Positions 7,437 through 41,527 of a DNA stretch of 46,857 bases are shown here, piece by piece. Under the pieces are notes generated by a model. It ran no database searches. It was not told the DNA's origin and saw nothing but the letters and a program-made list of their open reading frames with translations. Both the position numbers and the translations under genes were made by a program. Origin of the DNA: an uncultured Lachnospiraceae bacterium (GTDB lineage Bacteria; Bacillota; Clostridia; Lachnospirales; Lachnospiraceae); assembly GCA_944381405.1 (NCBI GenBank), contig CALWLA010000018.1:1-46857 (forward strand). Reading direction: 5' to 3'. Each line of letters starts with the position of its first letter. The first letter of the stretch is position 1.

Positions 7437-7835
7437 ATGGAACCTCTGAGAAACGAAATCTTCAGATATGTCAAAAGCAAATATAACGTGGAGCCGGATT
7501 ATCCTTTTTCAACGGCGCCCAGCTACCCGGTCCTGCGTCATGGGGATACCAGGAAATGGTTTGCGCTGATCATGGACATCCCCAGGGAAAAACTGGGATT
7601 AAAGGGCGCAGAACCGGTAGACATCGTCAATGTAAAGCTGGGAGATCCTATGCTTGTGGCGATGCTGGTCCAGCAGCCGGGATATTTTTACGGCTATCAT
7701 ATTGCCCGCAGTAGCTGGATCTCCATTTTGCTGGACGGCACGGTCCCCTTTGCAGAGATCTGTCAGTGGATCGATGAAAGCTATGCTGTGACGGCCTCCA
7801 AAGGAAAACGGAAGCTTATTTCCGGCGGTAAATGA
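7437..7835 (+). CDS. MmcQ/YjbR family DNA-binding protein
   Basis: A 132-aa protein of the YjbR/MmcQ family, small cytoplasmic proteins with a CyaY-like fold described as DNA-binding. Family features are YVKSKYNVEPDYPF at the N-terminus, FALIMDIPREKLGL, VDIVNVKLGDP, and GYHIARSSWISILLDG followed by IDESYAVT. The length matches the family. It has its own promoter-like sequence and converges with the next gene, overlapping its 3' end by 20 bp. The molecular role is not established. Confidence 0.88.
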   Translation: MEPLRNEIFRYVKSKYNVEPDYPFSTAPSYPVLRHGDTRKWFALIMDIPREKLGLKGAEPVDIVNVKLGDPMLVAMLVQQPGYFYGYHIARSSWISILLDGTVPFAEICQWIDESYAVTASKGKRKLISGGK

Positions 7836-8367
7836 TAGGCATGTCGTAGCCAAAGGTGCGTTTTCCGTTTACCTCCATGGTCTCGGAAACCTCCAGGCAG
7901 TCTTCGGAAAAGCGCTCATAAAGCGTGAATTTCAGCACAGGAGAAAACATGCTGACGCTGCCGCCGGACCAGACGCCCTGCTCCAGGGTATAGAGCGCCG
8001 GCGTGAATTTTTCAGACTTCTTCAACTGCGTATAGGATACGGGCCCAAGGGCTTCATAGGTAAAGTCGGTTTTGCTGTAGCCCTCGGGGACCTCGTAGGA
8101 GGTCAGCTGCACGCCCTCTCCGGTCTCTGTAAAAAGGAACAGATGAGAGGAAGCGTGGGTTTTGCCATTGGTGGTATAATAGCTTTCTTCCACCATGAAG
8201 ATTCCTGAAAAATCAGCAGGAAGGTCCAGGATCTTGTGATTGCAGGCAGTGTTGACATGCCGGGCGTAGGGGAAATCAGTGATTCCCTGCTGCTTAAGCT
8301 CCTCAAGCTGCTTTGCGTTGTCGAACTCACCGGTCAATAAAGAAACAAAAGACTGAAGTTTTTCCAT
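7816..8367 (-). CDS. Uncharacterised protein with a repeat-built mRNA leader
   Basis: A 183-aa soluble protein without signal peptide. I do not recognise a family with confidence. The N-terminal FVSLLTGEFDNAKQ and the following run of predicted beta strands faintly recall CpeT/CpcT chromophore-lyase-like barrels, but the conserved cysteines are missing and the organism should have no phycobilins, so I do not assign that. An AAGGAAAGGAC tract precedes the ATG at 8367. The leader upstream consists almost entirely of three copies of a 51-bp hairpin repeat (8384-8530) behind a promoter at 8530-8558. Confidence 0.7.
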   Translation of the reverse strand: MEKLQSFVSLLTGEFDNAKQLEELKQQGITDFPYARHVNTACNHKILDLPADFSGIFMVEESYYTTNGKTHASSHLFLFTETGEGVQLTSYEVPEGYSKTDFTYEALGPVSYTQLKKSEKFTPALYTLEQGVWSGGSVSMFSPVLKFTLYERFSEDCLEVSETMEVNGKRTFGYDMPIIYRRK

Positions 8368-8383
8368 AATATATGTCGTCCTT

Positions 8384-8530
8384 TCCTTGATTCAGCCGTG
8401 TTTTCCACGGCATAAAGGGATGCCTGAAGGGCGTTCCTTGATTCAGCCGTGTTTTCCACGGCATAAAGGGATGCCTGAAGGGCGTTCCTTGATTCAGCCG
8501 TGTTTTTCACGGCATAAAGGTATGCCCGTA
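8384..8530 (-). repeat. Tandem hairpin/SD leader repeat, locus 1 (3 x 51 bp)
   Basis: Copies at 8384-8434 and 8435-8485 are identical over 51 bp; a third copy (8486 to about 8530) diverges at its far end. Read on the minus strand, the sense of the gene at 8367, each unit holds a short stem GCC-CTTCA-GGC, then GCCGTG-GAAAA-CACGGC (loop AAAAA in the third copy), then TGAATCAAGGA, a ribosome-binding-like tract. The last copy supplies or adjoins the real ribosome binding site. The same architecture recurs at 29667-29790 and 35742-35843. Confidence 0.85.
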
Positions 8531-8558
8531 GTATAGTACAATTTAGCGGTGTCCGCAA
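8530..8558 (-). promoter_or_regulatory. Probable promoter reading into the leader repeats
   Basis: On the minus strand: TTGCGG (8558-8553), 17-bp spacer, TATACT (8535-8530). Transcription would begin about 7 nt further on, at the edge of the third repeat copy, making a leader of roughly 155 nt built of the repeats. Confidence 0.6.
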
Positions 8559-12740: not shown

Positions 12741-12810
12741 AAATAATAATTTAAAGTATAATAATCCAGAGTATAATAATTTAGAGTATAATAATTGAAA
12801 TTATAATAAC
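12741..12810. repeat. AT-rich 15-bp tandem repeat
   Basis: AGTATAATAAT recurs exactly 15 bp apart at 12756, 12771 and 12786, with partial copies before and after (ATTATAATAA at 12801). Every copy contains TATAAT. It lies between the membrane-protein gene and a terminator hairpin. Confidence 0.8.
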
Positions 12811-29666: not shown

Positions 29667-29790
29667 GGCAACAAGGAGGAGCGCCGTAGAACGGCATACC
29701 TATATGCCGTGGAAAACACGGCAACAAGGAGGTAACGCCGTAGAACGGCATACCTGTATGCCGTGAAAAACACGGCAACAAGGAGGAAAC
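29667..29790 (+). repeat. Tandem hairpin/SD leader repeat, locus 2 (2 x 54 bp plus a partial)
   Basis: Units at 29683-29736 and 29737-29790 with period 54, preceded by a partial copy (GGCAACAAGGAGG, 29667-29679). Each unit has GCCG-TAGAA-CGGC, then TGCCGTG-GAAAA/AAAAA-CACGGCA, then ACAAGGAGG. The last unit's AAGGAGG is the ribosome binding site of metN (start 29793). The layout matches the loci at 8384 and 35742, but the first stem has a different sequence that still pairs. Confidence 0.85.
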
Positions 29791-29792
29791 CA

Positions 29793-30791
29793 ATGGCGGA
29801 AAACATGATAGAGCTCCGGGAGCTGGGAAAAACCTTCAACACGGCAAACGGTTCGGTGACAGCCCTGGAGAATATCAACCTTACCATAGAAAAGGGGGAG
29901 ATCTTCGGCATCATCGGCCTGTCCGGCGCCGGAAAATCAACCCTGGTACGATGCATCAACTATCTGGAGGTGCCCACCTCCGGCTCCGTGATCTTCCAGG
30001 GAAAGAACCTGGGGACCCTGAAGGAGCAGGAGCTGCGGGAGGCCCGGCGGGAAATGAGCATGATCTTTCAGCAGTTCAATCTGCTGGCCCAGCGGAACGT
30101 GCTGCGGAACGTGACCTTTCCCCTGGAGCTTTCAGGGACCCCCAAGGCGGAGGCCCGGGAACGGGCCATGGAGCTTTTGAAGATGGTAGGCCTGGAGGAC
30201 CGGGCCAAGGCTTATCCGGCGCAGCTGTCCGGCGGACAGAAGCAGCGGGTGGCCATTGCCAGGGCCCTGGCCACAAGGCCCAAGGTGTTGCTGTGCGATG
30301 AGGCCACCTCGGCCCTGGATCCCAACACCACAAAGCAGATCCTGGAGCTTTTGAAGCGCATCAATCAGGAGCTGGGCGTCACGGTCATCGTCATCACCCA
30401 CGAGATGTCCGTCATCGAGGCCATCTGCGGCAGAGTGGCCATCATCGATCAGAGCCACATCGCCGAGGAGGGGCCGGTGGCGAAGATCTTCTCAGAGCCC
30501 AAGACCCGAATCGGTAAGCAGCTGATCCTGGGAGATGCCGGAAAGAACGTGGAGTTCGGCGAGCGGAAGGTGCGCCTGGTATTTGACGGAAACGTTTCCC
30601 AGGAGCCGGTGATCTCCAACCTGGTGATGACCTGCAAGACGCCGGTGAACATCGTCTTCGCCAACATCAAGGAGATCAATGGAAAATCCTTCGGCCAGAT
30701 GGTGCTGGAGCTGCCTGCGGATGAAACGGAGCGCAGCAGGGCCCTGCATTTTCTTGCGGCAAACAAGATCCCTTACGAGGAGGTGCGCTAA
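29793..30791 (+). CDS. metN: Methionine ABC transporter, ATP-binding subunit
   Basis: A 332-aa ATPase of the MetNIQ importer for methionine. Walker A is GLSGAGKST, the signature motif is QLSGGQKQRVAIARAL, and Walker B is VLLCDEATSALDPNT. The C-terminal 75 residues form the NIL domain (RLVFDGNVSQEPVISNL), which in MetN binds methionine and inhibits transport allosterically. The start is the ATG at 29793 because AAGGAGG lies 7 nt upstream, inside the last leader repeat. An upstream in-frame ATG would translate part of the repeat. metI follows with no gap. Confidence 0.95.
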   Translation: MAENMIELRELGKTFNTANGSVTALENINLTIEKGEIFGIIGLSGAGKSTLVRCINYLEVPTSGSVIFQGKNLGTLKEQELREARREMSMIFQQFNLLAQRNVLRNVTFPLELSGTPKAEARERAMELLKMVGLEDRAKAYPAQLSGGQKQRVAIARALATRPKVLLCDEATSALDPNTTKQILELLKRINQELGVTVIVITHEMSVIEAICGRVAIIDQSHIAEEGPVAKIFSEPKTRIGKQLILGDAGKNVEFGERKVRLVFDGNVSQEPVISNLVMTCKTPVNIVFANIKEINGKSFGQMVLELPADETERSRALHFLAANKIPYEEVR

Positions 30792-32897: not shown

Positions 32898-33989
32898 ATG
32901 AAAATACGGGAATATAAGGCGATGGCCCGGAAAACGCTGATCGGAAAATACGGCCTTCTGGTCCTGGCCCAGATCCTGATGGGCGTGCTGGTAGGGGCGC
33001 TTATCTTCTGCGCTGTGTTCTCCTTGCTGGTGGGCATGGGCATGTTTATTTCCGGACAGGGGGCCGGAGATGCCTTTGCAGCCCTTCTGGGAGCGGAGGC
33101 TGGTTTTGTGGTGCTGTTCCTGCTGCTTCTGATCGCAGGAATCGTCCTGAGCTATATGATGGGAATCGGATATATCAGGCTCTGTCTGAATATCTGCAGG
33201 AGCGTGCCCCACGGATTTTCCGATCTTTTTTACGGCTTCCGGAAGGGCAGCCATCCCCTTCGGTATCTGGGCATCAATCTGCTTCTGGTGCTTTTGTATC
33301 TGGTGCTGATGGCAGTCTATTACCTGGGACTGTTCGTGATAACGGATATGGCAGGCATGGGAGACGGAGGCGCGATCCTCTGGTCCCTGATCTGGTTCAT
33401 CGGCTTCTGTTGGCTGTTCCTGGGCTTTGCCTTTGCTCCGCTGCTGGTGATCGATAAGCCGGAAACAAGGGTGGGAGAGGCCTTTTCCGAGTCCCGCAGG
33501 CTGATGAAGCACCGGAAGATCAAATATGTGTTGCTGAGCCTGAGCTTTATCCTCTGGTTCATCCCCCTGTATCTGACCTTTTTCATCGCAAGCATCTGGA
33601 TCTATCCTTACATGACCTTTGCGACGCTGCTTTTCTATCTGGACGCCTCCGGTGAGCTTTATGTAAGCGACTGGGACAAGCCGGAGGGAGGGCAGGCGGC
33701 AGCATCAGAGCCGCAGCAGCCGGCAGGGCCGGAGCTGCAGCAGATAGCCGGGGCAGAGCCACAGCAGACCACCGCAGCAGAGCCGCAGCAAACAGCCGAA
33801 GCAGGATCGCAGCAGACCCCGGAGACGGAGCAGGAAAAGCCTGCAGAGGAAGCTGCATTCCCCTGGCAGAGGGCGGCGTTGGAAAATGCGCAGGCAGCGC
33901 AGGGGACAGCGGATGAGCCCGGCAGCCGGACGACGGAAACTGCCCCGGAAGAAACTGAAAAAAAGGAAAATGAGGAGAACAGGTCATGA
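32898..33989 (+). CDS. DUF975 family membrane protein with Q-rich tail
   Basis: A 363-aa membrane protein. Residues 1 to about 250 contain roughly six hydrophobic segments and match DUF975 (KIREYKAMARKTLIGKYGLL at the start, SRRLMKHRKIKYVLLSLSF later). The last 115 residues are a hydrophilic, Gln/Pro/Glu/Ala-rich low-complexity tail with repeats such as AEPQQT, probably cytoplasmic. There are two adjacent ATGs; the second (32898) has better spacing to CGGGAGG. Its end overlaps nrdR by 4 bp. Function unknown. Confidence 0.82.
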   Translation: MKIREYKAMARKTLIGKYGLLVLAQILMGVLVGALIFCAVFSLLVGMGMFISGQGAGDAFAALLGAEAGFVVLFLLLLIAGIVLSYMMGIGYIRLCLNICRSVPHGFSDLFYGFRKGSHPLRYLGINLLLVLLYLVLMAVYYLGLFVITDMAGMGDGGAILWSLIWFIGFCWLFLGFAFAPLLVIDKPETRVGEAFSESRRLMKHRKIKYVLLSLSFILWFIPLYLTFFIASIWIYPYMTFATLLFYLDASGELYVSDWDKPEGGQAAASEPQQPAGPELQQIAGAEPQQTTAAEPQQTAEAGSQQTPETEQEKPAEEAAFPWQRAALENAQAAQGTADEPGSRTTETAPEETEKKENEENRS

Positions 33990-35729: not shown

Positions 35730-35741
35730 GTAAAAGGGATA

Positions 35742-35843
35742 TACCCTTCGGGCACCCTTTTATGCCGTGAGGGACACGGCAAATTAAGGAAGTACCCTTC
35801 GGGTACACCTCTATGCCGTGAAAAACACGGCAAATTAAGGAAG
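35742..35843 (+). repeat. Tandem hairpin/SD leader repeat, locus 3 (2 x 51 bp)
   Basis: Units at 35742-35792 and 35793-35843, period 51. The first stem is ACC-CTTCG-GG (imperfect) in unit 1 and GTACC-CTTCG-GGTAC in unit 2. Then comes TATGCCGTG-AGGGA/AAAAA-CACGGCA, then AATTAAGGAAG, which in unit 2 is the ribosome binding site of argS. It has the same architecture as the loci at 8384 and 29667, with a different, still paired first stem. Confidence 0.85.
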
Positions 35844-35850
35844 GATGATC

Positions 35851-37710
35851 ATGAAAAAACTGACGGAGCTTTTAAATGAAATCTGCGGAGAGGGCTTTGC
35901 TGCGGCGGGCTACGATCCCGCCTTTGGCAGGGTCAGCCTGAGCAACCGGCCGGACCTCTGCGAGTATCAGTGTAACGGGGCCATGGCCTGCGCAAAGGCA
36001 GCCCATAAAAAGCCCATAGACATCGCCGGAGAGGTAGTGGAAAAGATCAGCGGACATCCCGCCCTGTCCAGGGCCGAGGCCTGCATGCCGGGCTTTATCA
36101 ACCTGGAGATCGATCCCGCTTATCTGGCGGAGTATCTTTCCGGCATGGCGGCGGAAGGGGAGACGGAGGAAGAACCCTTTTCCGCAGGAGGCGTCACTGC
36201 CTACAGAGAGGAAACGCGTCCTGCCCTTGGCGTCCAGCGGACAGAACAGCCGGAAACCATCCTGGTGGATTACGGTGGAGCGAATGTGGCCAAGCCGCTG
36301 CATGTAGGACATCTCCGCTCAGCGGTCATCGGCGAGGCCATCAAGCGCATGGGCGCCAGGATGGGCCATCATATGATCGGCGACGTGCATCTGGGAGACT
36401 GGGGCCTGCAGATGGGGCTCATCATCGAGGAGCTGAAGGATCGGGGCCAGAAGGACTTCACCCTGGCGGATCTGGAGGAGATCTATCCCGCAGCTTCCGC
36501 GAAGTCCAAGGAAAAGGACGAAGCCACCGGGAAACTGACGCCGGAGGCGGAAGCCTTTAAAGAGCGGGCGCTGCACGCCACCAGCCTTTTGCAGAACGGG
36601 GATCCGGAATGCCGGAAGATCTGGGAGCGCATCATGGAGCTGTCCTTGGCGGACTTAAAGAAAAACTACAACGCTCTGAACGTGCATTTTGAGCTGTGGA
36701 AGGGGGAATCCGACGCCCAGAAGTACATTCCGGAAATGATCCAGGGCCTTGTGCAAAAGGGCATCGCCTACGAATCCCAGGGAGCCCTGGTGGTGGATGT
36801 GCAGGAGGAAAGCGATACCAGAGAGCTGCCCCCCTGTCTGATTCGTAAATCAGACGGCGCATCCCTCTACGCCACCACGGACCTGGCTACCATGGTGGAG
36901 CGGGAGCAGCTGTACCAGCCCAAGGCTTATATCTATATCGCAGACCAGCGGCAGAGCCTTCATTACACCAGCTTTTTCCGGGTGGCGAAGAAAGGCGGGA
37001 TCGTTCCGCCGGAAACCAGCCTCACCTTCCTGGGCTTCGGCACCATGAACGGAAAGGACGGAAAGCCCTTTAAGACCAGAGAGGGCGGCGTCATGCGGCT
37101 GGCGGTGCTGATCCGGGATATCACGGACAAGGTTTACGAAAAGATCCGGGAGACCCGGTCTGAGGAGGAGATCCCCGAGGAGGAAGCGCGGCATATCGCA
37201 GGCATCGTGGGCCTTGCAGCCCTGAAATACGGAGACCTTTCCAACCAGGCCTCCAAGGACTATGTCTTCGATATGGACCGGTTTATCAGCTTTGAGGGCA
37301 ATACCGGACCTTACATCCTCTATACCCTGGTGCGGATCGGAAGCATCCTGAACAGGTATTTCGATACAAAGGATCAGGCATCCCTTGCTTGCGCCCTGGC
37401 AAAGGCCAAGGCAGACGGGGTGCTCCGGATCGCCGGTGCAGGCAGCAGGAACGAAAAGGCTCTGGCGCTGCTCCTGGCCCGCTATGGCGAGGTGATGGAG
37501 ACCGCCTGGGCGGAGCTCGCTCCCCACAGGCTCTGCCAGTATGTCTATGAGGTATCGGAGGCCTTCAATTCCTTCTACCATGACACCAAGATCCTGACGG
37601 AACCGGATGAGGAGAAAAAGAGAAGCTACCTGGCCCTGCTGGCCCTGACCAGAGCGGTGCTTTCCGACTGCATCGACGTGCTGGGCTTTTCCGCACCGGA
37701 GCGGATGTAA
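35851..37710 (+). CDS. argS: Arginyl-tRNA synthetase
   Basis: A 619-aa class I aminoacyl-tRNA synthetase that charges tRNA-Arg. The signature ANVAKPLHVGHLRSAVIGEA contains the HIGH motif as HVGH; the canonical KMSKS is not evident, with only FKTREGGVMRL in that region, which is normal for ArgRS. The N-terminal additional domain (1 to about 120) and the C-terminal anticodon-binding helices (ending SDCIDVLGFSAPERM) are present. The start is the ATG at 35851, 6 nt after AAGGAAGG; another ATG at 35845 is too close. The leader consists of two hairpin repeats, suggesting control at the translational level, though this is inference. Confidence 0.96.
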   Translation: MKKLTELLNEICGEGFAAAGYDPAFGRVSLSNRPDLCEYQCNGAMACAKAAHKKPIDIAGEVVEKISGHPALSRAEACMPGFINLEIDPAYLAEYLSGMAAEGETEEEPFSAGGVTAYREETRPALGVQRTEQPETILVDYGGANVAKPLHVGHLRSAVIGEAIKRMGARMGHHMIGDVHLGDWGLQMGLIIEELKDRGQKDFTLADLEEIYPAASAKSKEKDEATGKLTPEAEAFKERALHATSLLQNGDPECRKIWERIMELSLADLKKNYNALNVHFELWKGESDAQKYIPEMIQGLVQKGIAYESQGALVVDVQEESDTRELPPCLIRKSDGASLYATTDLATMVEREQLYQPKAYIYIADQRQSLHYTSFFRVAKKGGIVPPETSLTFLGFGTMNGKDGKPFKTREGGVMRLAVLIRDITDKVYEKIRETRSEEEIPEEEARHIAGIVGLAALKYGDLSNQASKDYVFDMDRFISFEGNTGPYILYTLVRIGSILNRYFDTKDQASLACALAKAKADGVLRIAGAGSRNEKALALLLARYGEVMETAWAELAPHRLCQYVYEVSEAFNSFYHDTKILTEPDEEKKRSYLALLALTRAVLSDCIDVLGFSAPERM

Positions 37711-41478: not shown

Positions 41479-41487
41479 GTCCAATGA

Positions 41488-41527
41488 CCCTATAACCCTA
41501 TAACCCTATAACCCTATAACCCTATAA
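41488..41527. repeat. Simple 8-bp tandem repeat (CCCTATAA)x5
   Basis: Five perfect head-to-tail copies of CCCTATAA covering 40 bp, in the gap between the two converging terminators of the FabG-like gene and hpf. Confidence 0.98.

Follow-up and report, generated by a model that had tools for sequence, protein, structure and literature searches.

A double-hairpin tandem repeat before start codons, probably a small repeat of Shine-Dalgarno sites in Lachnospiraceae

Three gene leaders in the window, by which we mean the whole 46,857-nt stretch of DNA that was analysed, are each built of two or three head-to-tail units of 51-54 bp directly 5' of a start codon, and each unit comprises two hairpins and an AAGGA-type tail. 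Rather than an inherited regulon, these arrays probably represent a small non-autonomous repeat of Lachnospiraceae that occupies Shine-Dalgarno (SD) sites and grows locally in tandem; we infer both its non-autonomous mobility and its SD-directed insertion. The features concerned are:

7816..8367, minus strand: gene after array 1, encoding a 183-aa protein (Pfam/NCBIfam profile search)
8379..8382, minus strand: AGGA, probable SD of the array 1 gene, directly 3' of the last unit
8383..8534, minus strand: array 1, three head-to-tail units (8383-8434, 8435-8485 and 8486-about 8534)
29667..29680, plus strand: 5' flank of array 2, GGCAACAAGGAGG(A), its letters identical to unit tails
29681..29788, plus strand: array 2, two units (29681-29734 and 29735-29788)
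29780..29786, plus strand: AAGGAGG, probable SD of the metN-like gene
29793..30791, plus strand: MetN-like ABC transporter ATPase (best match MetN)
35741..35842, plus strand: array 3, two units (35741-35791 and 35792-35842)
35837..35845, plus strand: AAGGAAGGA, probable SD region of argS
35845..37710, plus strand: argS, arginyl-tRNA synthetase (Pfam domains)

Arrays of the window and anatomy of the unit

The two-hairpin tandem repeat that a sequence-only reading had described at three loci was confirmed, with the earlier coordinates matched by the sequence and by Tandem Repeats Finder (8383-8526 on the minus strand, 29667-29788 and 35742-35843 on the plus strand; periods of 51, 54 and 51; 86-97% matches), and all three arrays indeed stand directly before start codons in the sense of the gene. 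The downstream genes had been named as an uncharacterised protein, metN and argS. The Pfam domains bear out argS, and the 183-aa protein has no Pfam or NCBIfam match at E<=0.001; metN can be called only MetN-like, scoring 357.5 bits with the MetN model, below that model's cut-off of 499.7. The last unit of array 1 ends 15 nt from the ATG, and argS has two possible starts, ATG 35845 or 35851. In array 2, stem 1 is GCCG/CGGC, stem 2 is GCCGTG/CACGGC and the tail reads AACAAGGAGG; its 5' flank, GGCAACAAGGAGG(A), may stem from duplication of the SD or be what is left of an earlier unit. The claim that the first stem varies yet pairs holds in general, as in the second unit of array 3 (GTACC/GGTAC), with exceptions in the first unit of that array, where stem 1 is imperfect, and in the outermost unit of array 1 (8486-8534), where it is broken or imperfect. 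Exact GCCGTGN5CACGGC occurs seven times in the window, every time inside one of the three arrays, and with up to two mismatches nine times, against 2.06 expected and a maximum of 6 over 100 shuffles. The three leaders also fold more stably than dinucleotide shuffles (z-scores of -6.1, -4.8 and -3.8). Three further tandem repeats were noted in the window: a perfect 8-bp repeat, ACCCTATA, at 41487-41527 (5.1 copies), which is unrelated to the hairpin arrays; a 24-bp repeat at 33692-33817 (5.2 copies), perhaps, as a guess, coding; and an AT-rich 15-bp repeat, ATAATAATTTAAAGT, at 12743-12809 (4.5 copies).

Read in gene sense, the unit consists of ACACC-loop-GGTGT, ACC, three bases, ATG, the second hairpin and an A-rich tail with GGAA or AAGGAGG at its end; across the family Lachnospiraceae the repeat is ∼45-54 bp long and the tail mostly ends in GAA. 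The second stem, described earlier as invariant, is so within the window, and because it differs between genomes this constancy is a local feature: GCCGTG/CACGGC is the form of the window's own genome and of Candidatus Pseudolachnospira avium, with GCCC/GGGC in genome G418, GCCTT/AAGGC in G302 and GGCC/GGCC in G138 and G435, while in G015 GCGCTG/CAGCGC is commonest and GCCGTG is present too. Minor forms (GCCATG/CATGGC, GCGCTG/CAGCGC and GTCGTG/CACGAC) accompany the main one in the own genome.

Both stems covary beyond a tree-based null, so that the covariance model and covariation check proposed with the earlier reading gave a positive result. Pairs 3-35 in stem 1 and 48-71 and 50-69 in stem 2 were supported at E<0.02, with scores of 98-155 compared with 16.7 (E 11.6) for the best pair outside the structure; this null is our own re-implementation rather than R-scape (FastTree, parsimony-placed substitutions and 60 simulations), applied to 98 distinct units, one per array, in an alignment fitted to the structure. 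The other eight structural pairs, including 49-70 (score 45.8, E 0.78), were not significant under the tree null. Seven structural pairs lack signal partly from near-invariance, and pairs 1-37, 2-36 and 52-66, which are variable at one or both positions, are still unsupported. Double-changed cells numbered 97-143 against 29-41 in shuffles, and the shuffling and sliding controls support the structure as a whole, with two of five measures in one shuffle test reached by 15-17 of 500 shuffles. Together these data support selection on the structure, as proposed, and the hairpins that selection has kept may serve mobility, the mRNA, or both.

Position, spread and leaders without the array

Of 152 testable arrays, 134 are followed within 30 nt by the start of a sense open reading frame of 80 aa or longer (31/32 in the own genome; 41/48 in the contig set, a count biased because its search pattern demanded AAGGA; 62/72 in the family set; the model sets likewise score an AAGGAA tail), compared with a fraction of 0.25-0.32 for random positions, and the proposed placement in sense before start codons is thus supported. 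By the test used, 18 of the 152 are not directly before a sense frame; on reading, some of these exceptions, such as L188, are followed by further units that the model missed. The count leaves out five of the 157 arrays, which lie close to the end of a contig or locus and among which L114 and L126 show an antisense frame where the sense one fell outside the test, as well as duplicate loci (L119, L143, L145, L120, L139, L088 and L169 in one set; L173, L175, L178, L183, L169 and L170 in the other). None of the testable arrays was antisense-only at 80 aa; one weak match was at 50 aa (L180), and 21 of the 134 sense arrays also pass the antisense test. Copies in both orientations or at 3' ends, which would have spoken against the earlier reading, were therefore little seen, being confined to L180 at 50 aa and to C1:90055-90105 (L062) in the own genome. 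At L062 the order is gene end, unit, terminator-like hairpin and HisJ-family (PHP) gene; it was counted as sense via an in-frame GTG only, the likelier start lies ∼70 nt on, behind the hairpin, and it is the one possible 3'-end copy noticed in this genome.

In the own genome (2.0 Mb in 41 contigs) the covariance model matches 58 copies at E<=1, which form 34 arrays with one to five units each; E is below 1e-4 for 51 copies, and the last few are weak and may include chance matches. The pattern ATGCCGTGN5CACGGC matches it 33 times, with 0 matches for the reversed control. Among 61 genomes, comprising this one and relatives, matches at E<=0.01 numbered 56 in the own genome, 18 in G015 of the same genus and one, weak, in G022, and 22 of 25 genomes of the same genus had no match at this threshold. 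Searches with models of widening scope, in each case with the own genome counted, found the repeat in 49 of 397 sampled genomes of the family, presumably Lachnospiraceae (E<=0.001), in 14 of 392 at the level of the order (E<=1e-4) and in 4 of 391 at that of the class, of which one, with a single copy (G1048), lies outside the family; at most 14-15 candidate stretches per genome were scored in the large scans, so copy counts are minima. The repeat is sporadic even inside one genus and across Lachnospiraceae. Ca. Pseudolachnospira avium, assigned by the NCBI taxonomy to Clostridia incertae sedis, has 117 matches at E<=0.01. A pattern scan of genome contigs gave 46 stretches, 38 of them in Clostridia-type records, and positive taxa include Ca. 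Pseudolachnospira avium, Ca. Scybalocola, Mediterraneibacter, Lachnoclostridium An169, Ca. Choladousia, Ca. Limivivens, Sporofaciens, one MAG labelled Bacilli and others. The remaining eight, from Proteobacteria, were dismissed as chance-like: seven, from Burkholderiales, lie within apparently one coding sequence, which we take to be of the YajQ type, and one is from Acidisoma. Locus L275, which looks coding, was likewise set aside. An origin in phages or plasmids was rejected, there being no match in viral contigs with two exact patterns, which variants would escape, nor in phage and plasmid records to one array.

In the own genome a unit with the rarer stem GCCGTG/CGCGGC stands at the end of one contig (C19:46645-46699, L080) and at the start of another (C30:1-74, L085), where it precedes a NifS-type desulfurase gene. 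Because one unit type ends C19 and begins C30, the repeat probably broke the assembly; for annotation, such repeats can break assemblies and mimic regulons.

Array positions are not conserved between species. The nearest relative seen, G006, whose matches to the window show 78-86% identity, lacks the array at 13/13 leaders of best-matching genes, orthology being taken as best DNA match and the 13 comprising 11 usable of sixteen own coding pieces plus metN and argS, out of 33-34 arrays; in G015, which has its own copies elsewhere, it is absent at 7/7 leaders compared. With the model run unfiltered over these 20 loci, the best E was 0.039. The cleanest case is metN, where the own genome has two units between copies of CAACAAGGAGG and G006 has a single GGAAGGAGG. 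One degenerate unit-like sequence does precede a start codon in G006 (L274, E 0.0095), and GGCAGAATCAAG is retained in the rnfC leader there; the pattern may therefore reflect some loss in G006 as well as gain in the own lineage.

Identity between own units is 89% within an array versus 69% between arrays, as would be expected if dispersal is rare and is followed by tandem growth in place. The leader of a sugar-ABC ATPase gene (presumably of the mglA type) has one unit in three species of one genus and at least seven in G660, with stem 2 being GCCC/GGGC in the three and GTCC/GGAC in G660. A compensatory change of this kind between corresponding leaders points to selection acting on copies in place, which is more than a dead passenger would need. 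The G660 array of at least seven units (L248, L258 and L267; G660:C33:264018-264413) is interrupted by a stretch with an N. Copies also lie directly 5' of serine recombinase genes in other genomes (L180 and L185), 33 nt 5' of a possibly N-truncated one (L184) and 5' of a sortase gene (L189), which suggests that integrative elements may ferry the repeat. In five genomes (L189, L191, L246, L253 and L266, with the sortase domain identified by search in L189 only) one or two units with alike flanks stand before a sortase gene, a case of copy-number variation at one site, perhaps in an integrative element.

The 5' flank of an array resembles its own tail more than other tails (4.89 versus 3.42 nt over 111 arrays, p 0.0002), and this also holds for the 60 arrays without visible remnants (4.33 versus 3.39 nt, p 0.0002); the test is a within-genome permutation, and remnants of older units could give like similarity. 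On reading, flank and tail share 9-11 letters, including the host SD, at the proC, polA and C8:77154 arrays. Mobilisation by a resident Y1/RAYT enzyme was rejected, as no Y1 transposase (PF01797, E<=0.001) was found in the own genome (G000); at the same threshold none was found in the repeat-bearing G418, G138, G435, G284, G330 and G061, and PF01797 matches occur in G063, G099, G302, G355, G387, G420 and, weakly, G015, and in repeat-free genomes too. Neither an autonomous long version nor terminal inverted repeats were seen, nor any insertion that distinguishes strains of one species.

A mobile REP- or MITE-like repeat that preserves the SD, raised earlier as an alternative, is the best fit to these comparative data. 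On this reading copies would enter at the SD, typically at the junction of GAA and AGGAG, and in gene sense; a working SD would remain beside the start codon because the host SD either stays downstream or is duplicated, and the unit would then multiply locally into head-to-tail arrays. Insertion could be the work of an enzyme or, equally possibly, of microhomology between AAGGA tracts, and the likeliest effect on the host mRNA would be mild, either stabilisation or none. More tentatively, the insertion machinery may recognise the SD itself, duplicate or rebuild it and then amplify the repeat into copy-variable structured leaders. If true, such an SD-homing repeat could land 5' of nearly any gene, even an essential one, and leave translation unimpeded, and in gut Clostridia copy-variable structured leaders in front of dozens of core genes would offer ready expression variation. 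Restriction to ribosome-binding sites, and there to a single strand, would be an unusual way for a mobile element to solve the problem of harmless insertion.

Regulatory readings of the leaders

Many last units run directly into the host SD (AAGGAA, then AGGAG, then the ATG), so the earlier assignment of an SD-type tract to each unit stands only in part: in many arrays the likely functional SD lies 3' of the last unit. SD-like tails (AAGGA, AGGAG or GGAGG) are present in 65 of 104 internal units and missing from 39, and because host SDs adjoin the last units and these 39 tails are not SD-like, the repeated SD is partly a by-product. For 29 own arrays, opening the start region is predicted to cost 6.33 kcal/mol with the array, 6.78 without it and 6.12 when it is shuffled (p 0.18 and 0.73 for array versus none or shuffled), and SD sequestration or insulation was rejected because these energies are alike.

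The genes that follow arrays in the own genome encode formate-THF ligase, HydF, a TM1266 regulator, NrdD, Hsp33, LeuA, MnmE, ProC, RnfC, a NifS desulfurase, PolA and ArgS and, at scores below the model cut-offs, DHFR-, ZapA-, glutamine synthetase-, formate transporter- and MetN-like proteins, and several have no profile match; we see no common pathway among them. This argues against a cis-regulatory RNA regulon, in which the double hairpin would bind a trans-acting protein or sRNA on ∼30 mRNAs and unit number would tune the response, as do the array-free sister species that retains the genes, the stem 2 sequence that is not conserved between genomes and the SD access predicted to be alike with and without the array. 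Covariation in both stems and the sense, SD-adjacent position are in its favour, as are the purine-rich second-hairpin loop in the own genome and a similar proposal for TAACTGA repeats (PMC4679880). Stem 2 in alignment A3 has 9 G.U and 0 A.C cells, as expected of the mRNA strand, but other counts weaken this signal. Alignment A5 comprises the best 150 of 183 matches (A2 the best 150 of 159); in it the five outer pairs of this stem have 7 G.U and 0 A.C and the innermost adds 2 G.U and 9 A.C, the latter perhaps from misaligned loops, and pair 2 of stem 1 is C.A in 33 of 75 arrays; the strand asymmetry is mixed. On balance we consider a regulon unlikely.

We give little credence to a generic mRNA-stabilising leader, likened to STAB-SD or aprE-type leaders with their 5' exonuclease block, in which hairpins and SD-like tracts would block RNase J and arrays would expand for dose. 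It draws on the evidence for transcription: a co-directional open frame of at least 100 codons stops no more than 40 nt ahead of 13 of 33 own arrays, and a -10-like motif lies upstream of 9 of 33 (a raw count without control), so that the units should be in mRNA, as structured leaders at the 5' end or between cistrons; in Bacillus subtilis a 5' hairpin or strong SD stabilises mRNA (PMC3997798). However, it leaves unexplained the dispersal, the copies between cistrons that lie at a distance from any 5' end and the internal units without an SD-like tail. That the repeated SD acts as a decoy, ribosome landing array or on/off leader, as first suggested, is very improbable: a majority of internal units carry SD-like tails and folds that pair ACC(U) with the SD exist, but internal SDs are not conserved, opening energy is unchanged and no significant covariation under the tree null lies outside the two hairpins (the near-invariant CC/GG positions being invisible to that test).

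Likeness to known elements

The view that the repeat is not a described riboswitch was borne out by Rfam, which gave 0 matches in the window and a best score of 18 bits against 49.9 required for array 2. A riboswitch or other known RNA was rejected since no Rfam family reached its gathering score on the arrays; across 20 related loci (E<=1) T-box, cobalamin and just sub-threshold TPP matches all lay outside them. We found no description of the repeat in the literature covered, which is weak evidence, as subscription literature was mostly outside it.

The repeat is like MITEs (PMC10969869) in being short, non-coding and dispersed with possible target duplication, and unlike them in that no cognate transposase was seen and terminal inverted repeats are absent, the unit having two separate hairpins and non-complementary ends (alignment A1, by reading). 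With REP/BIME elements (PMC3733652) it shares many-copy short palindromes in families that differ between genomes. Unlike REP/RAYT systems, it is head-to-tail and SD-tied, with no Y1 transposase in the own genome; multi-unit arrays are head-to-tail on reading, not in the alternating order of BIMEs, though grouping joined same-strand matches only.

BOX of Streptococcus pneumoniae (PMC3049150) is a small interspersed hairpin repeat with a tandem internal module of variable copy number and reported effects on nearby gene expression; it is over-represented between convergent genes, and 70 of 86 copies lie upstream of a CDS. It has boxA and boxC ends, whereas here each unit is complete and no end modules were seen; on reading the arrays by themselves the order boxA-boxB-boxC does not appear, and the present arrays, unlike BOX, stand mostly in sense directly before an open reading frame.

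TAACTGA repeats of Beggiatoaceae (PMC4679880) resemble the present ones in being tandem, mostly just upstream of start codons and forward, with sporadic phylogeny and no common downstream function, essential genes included. There the unit is 7 nt long and overlaps the ribosome-binding site, mostly without an SD, whereas here it is a 52-nt double hairpin that keeps the SD.
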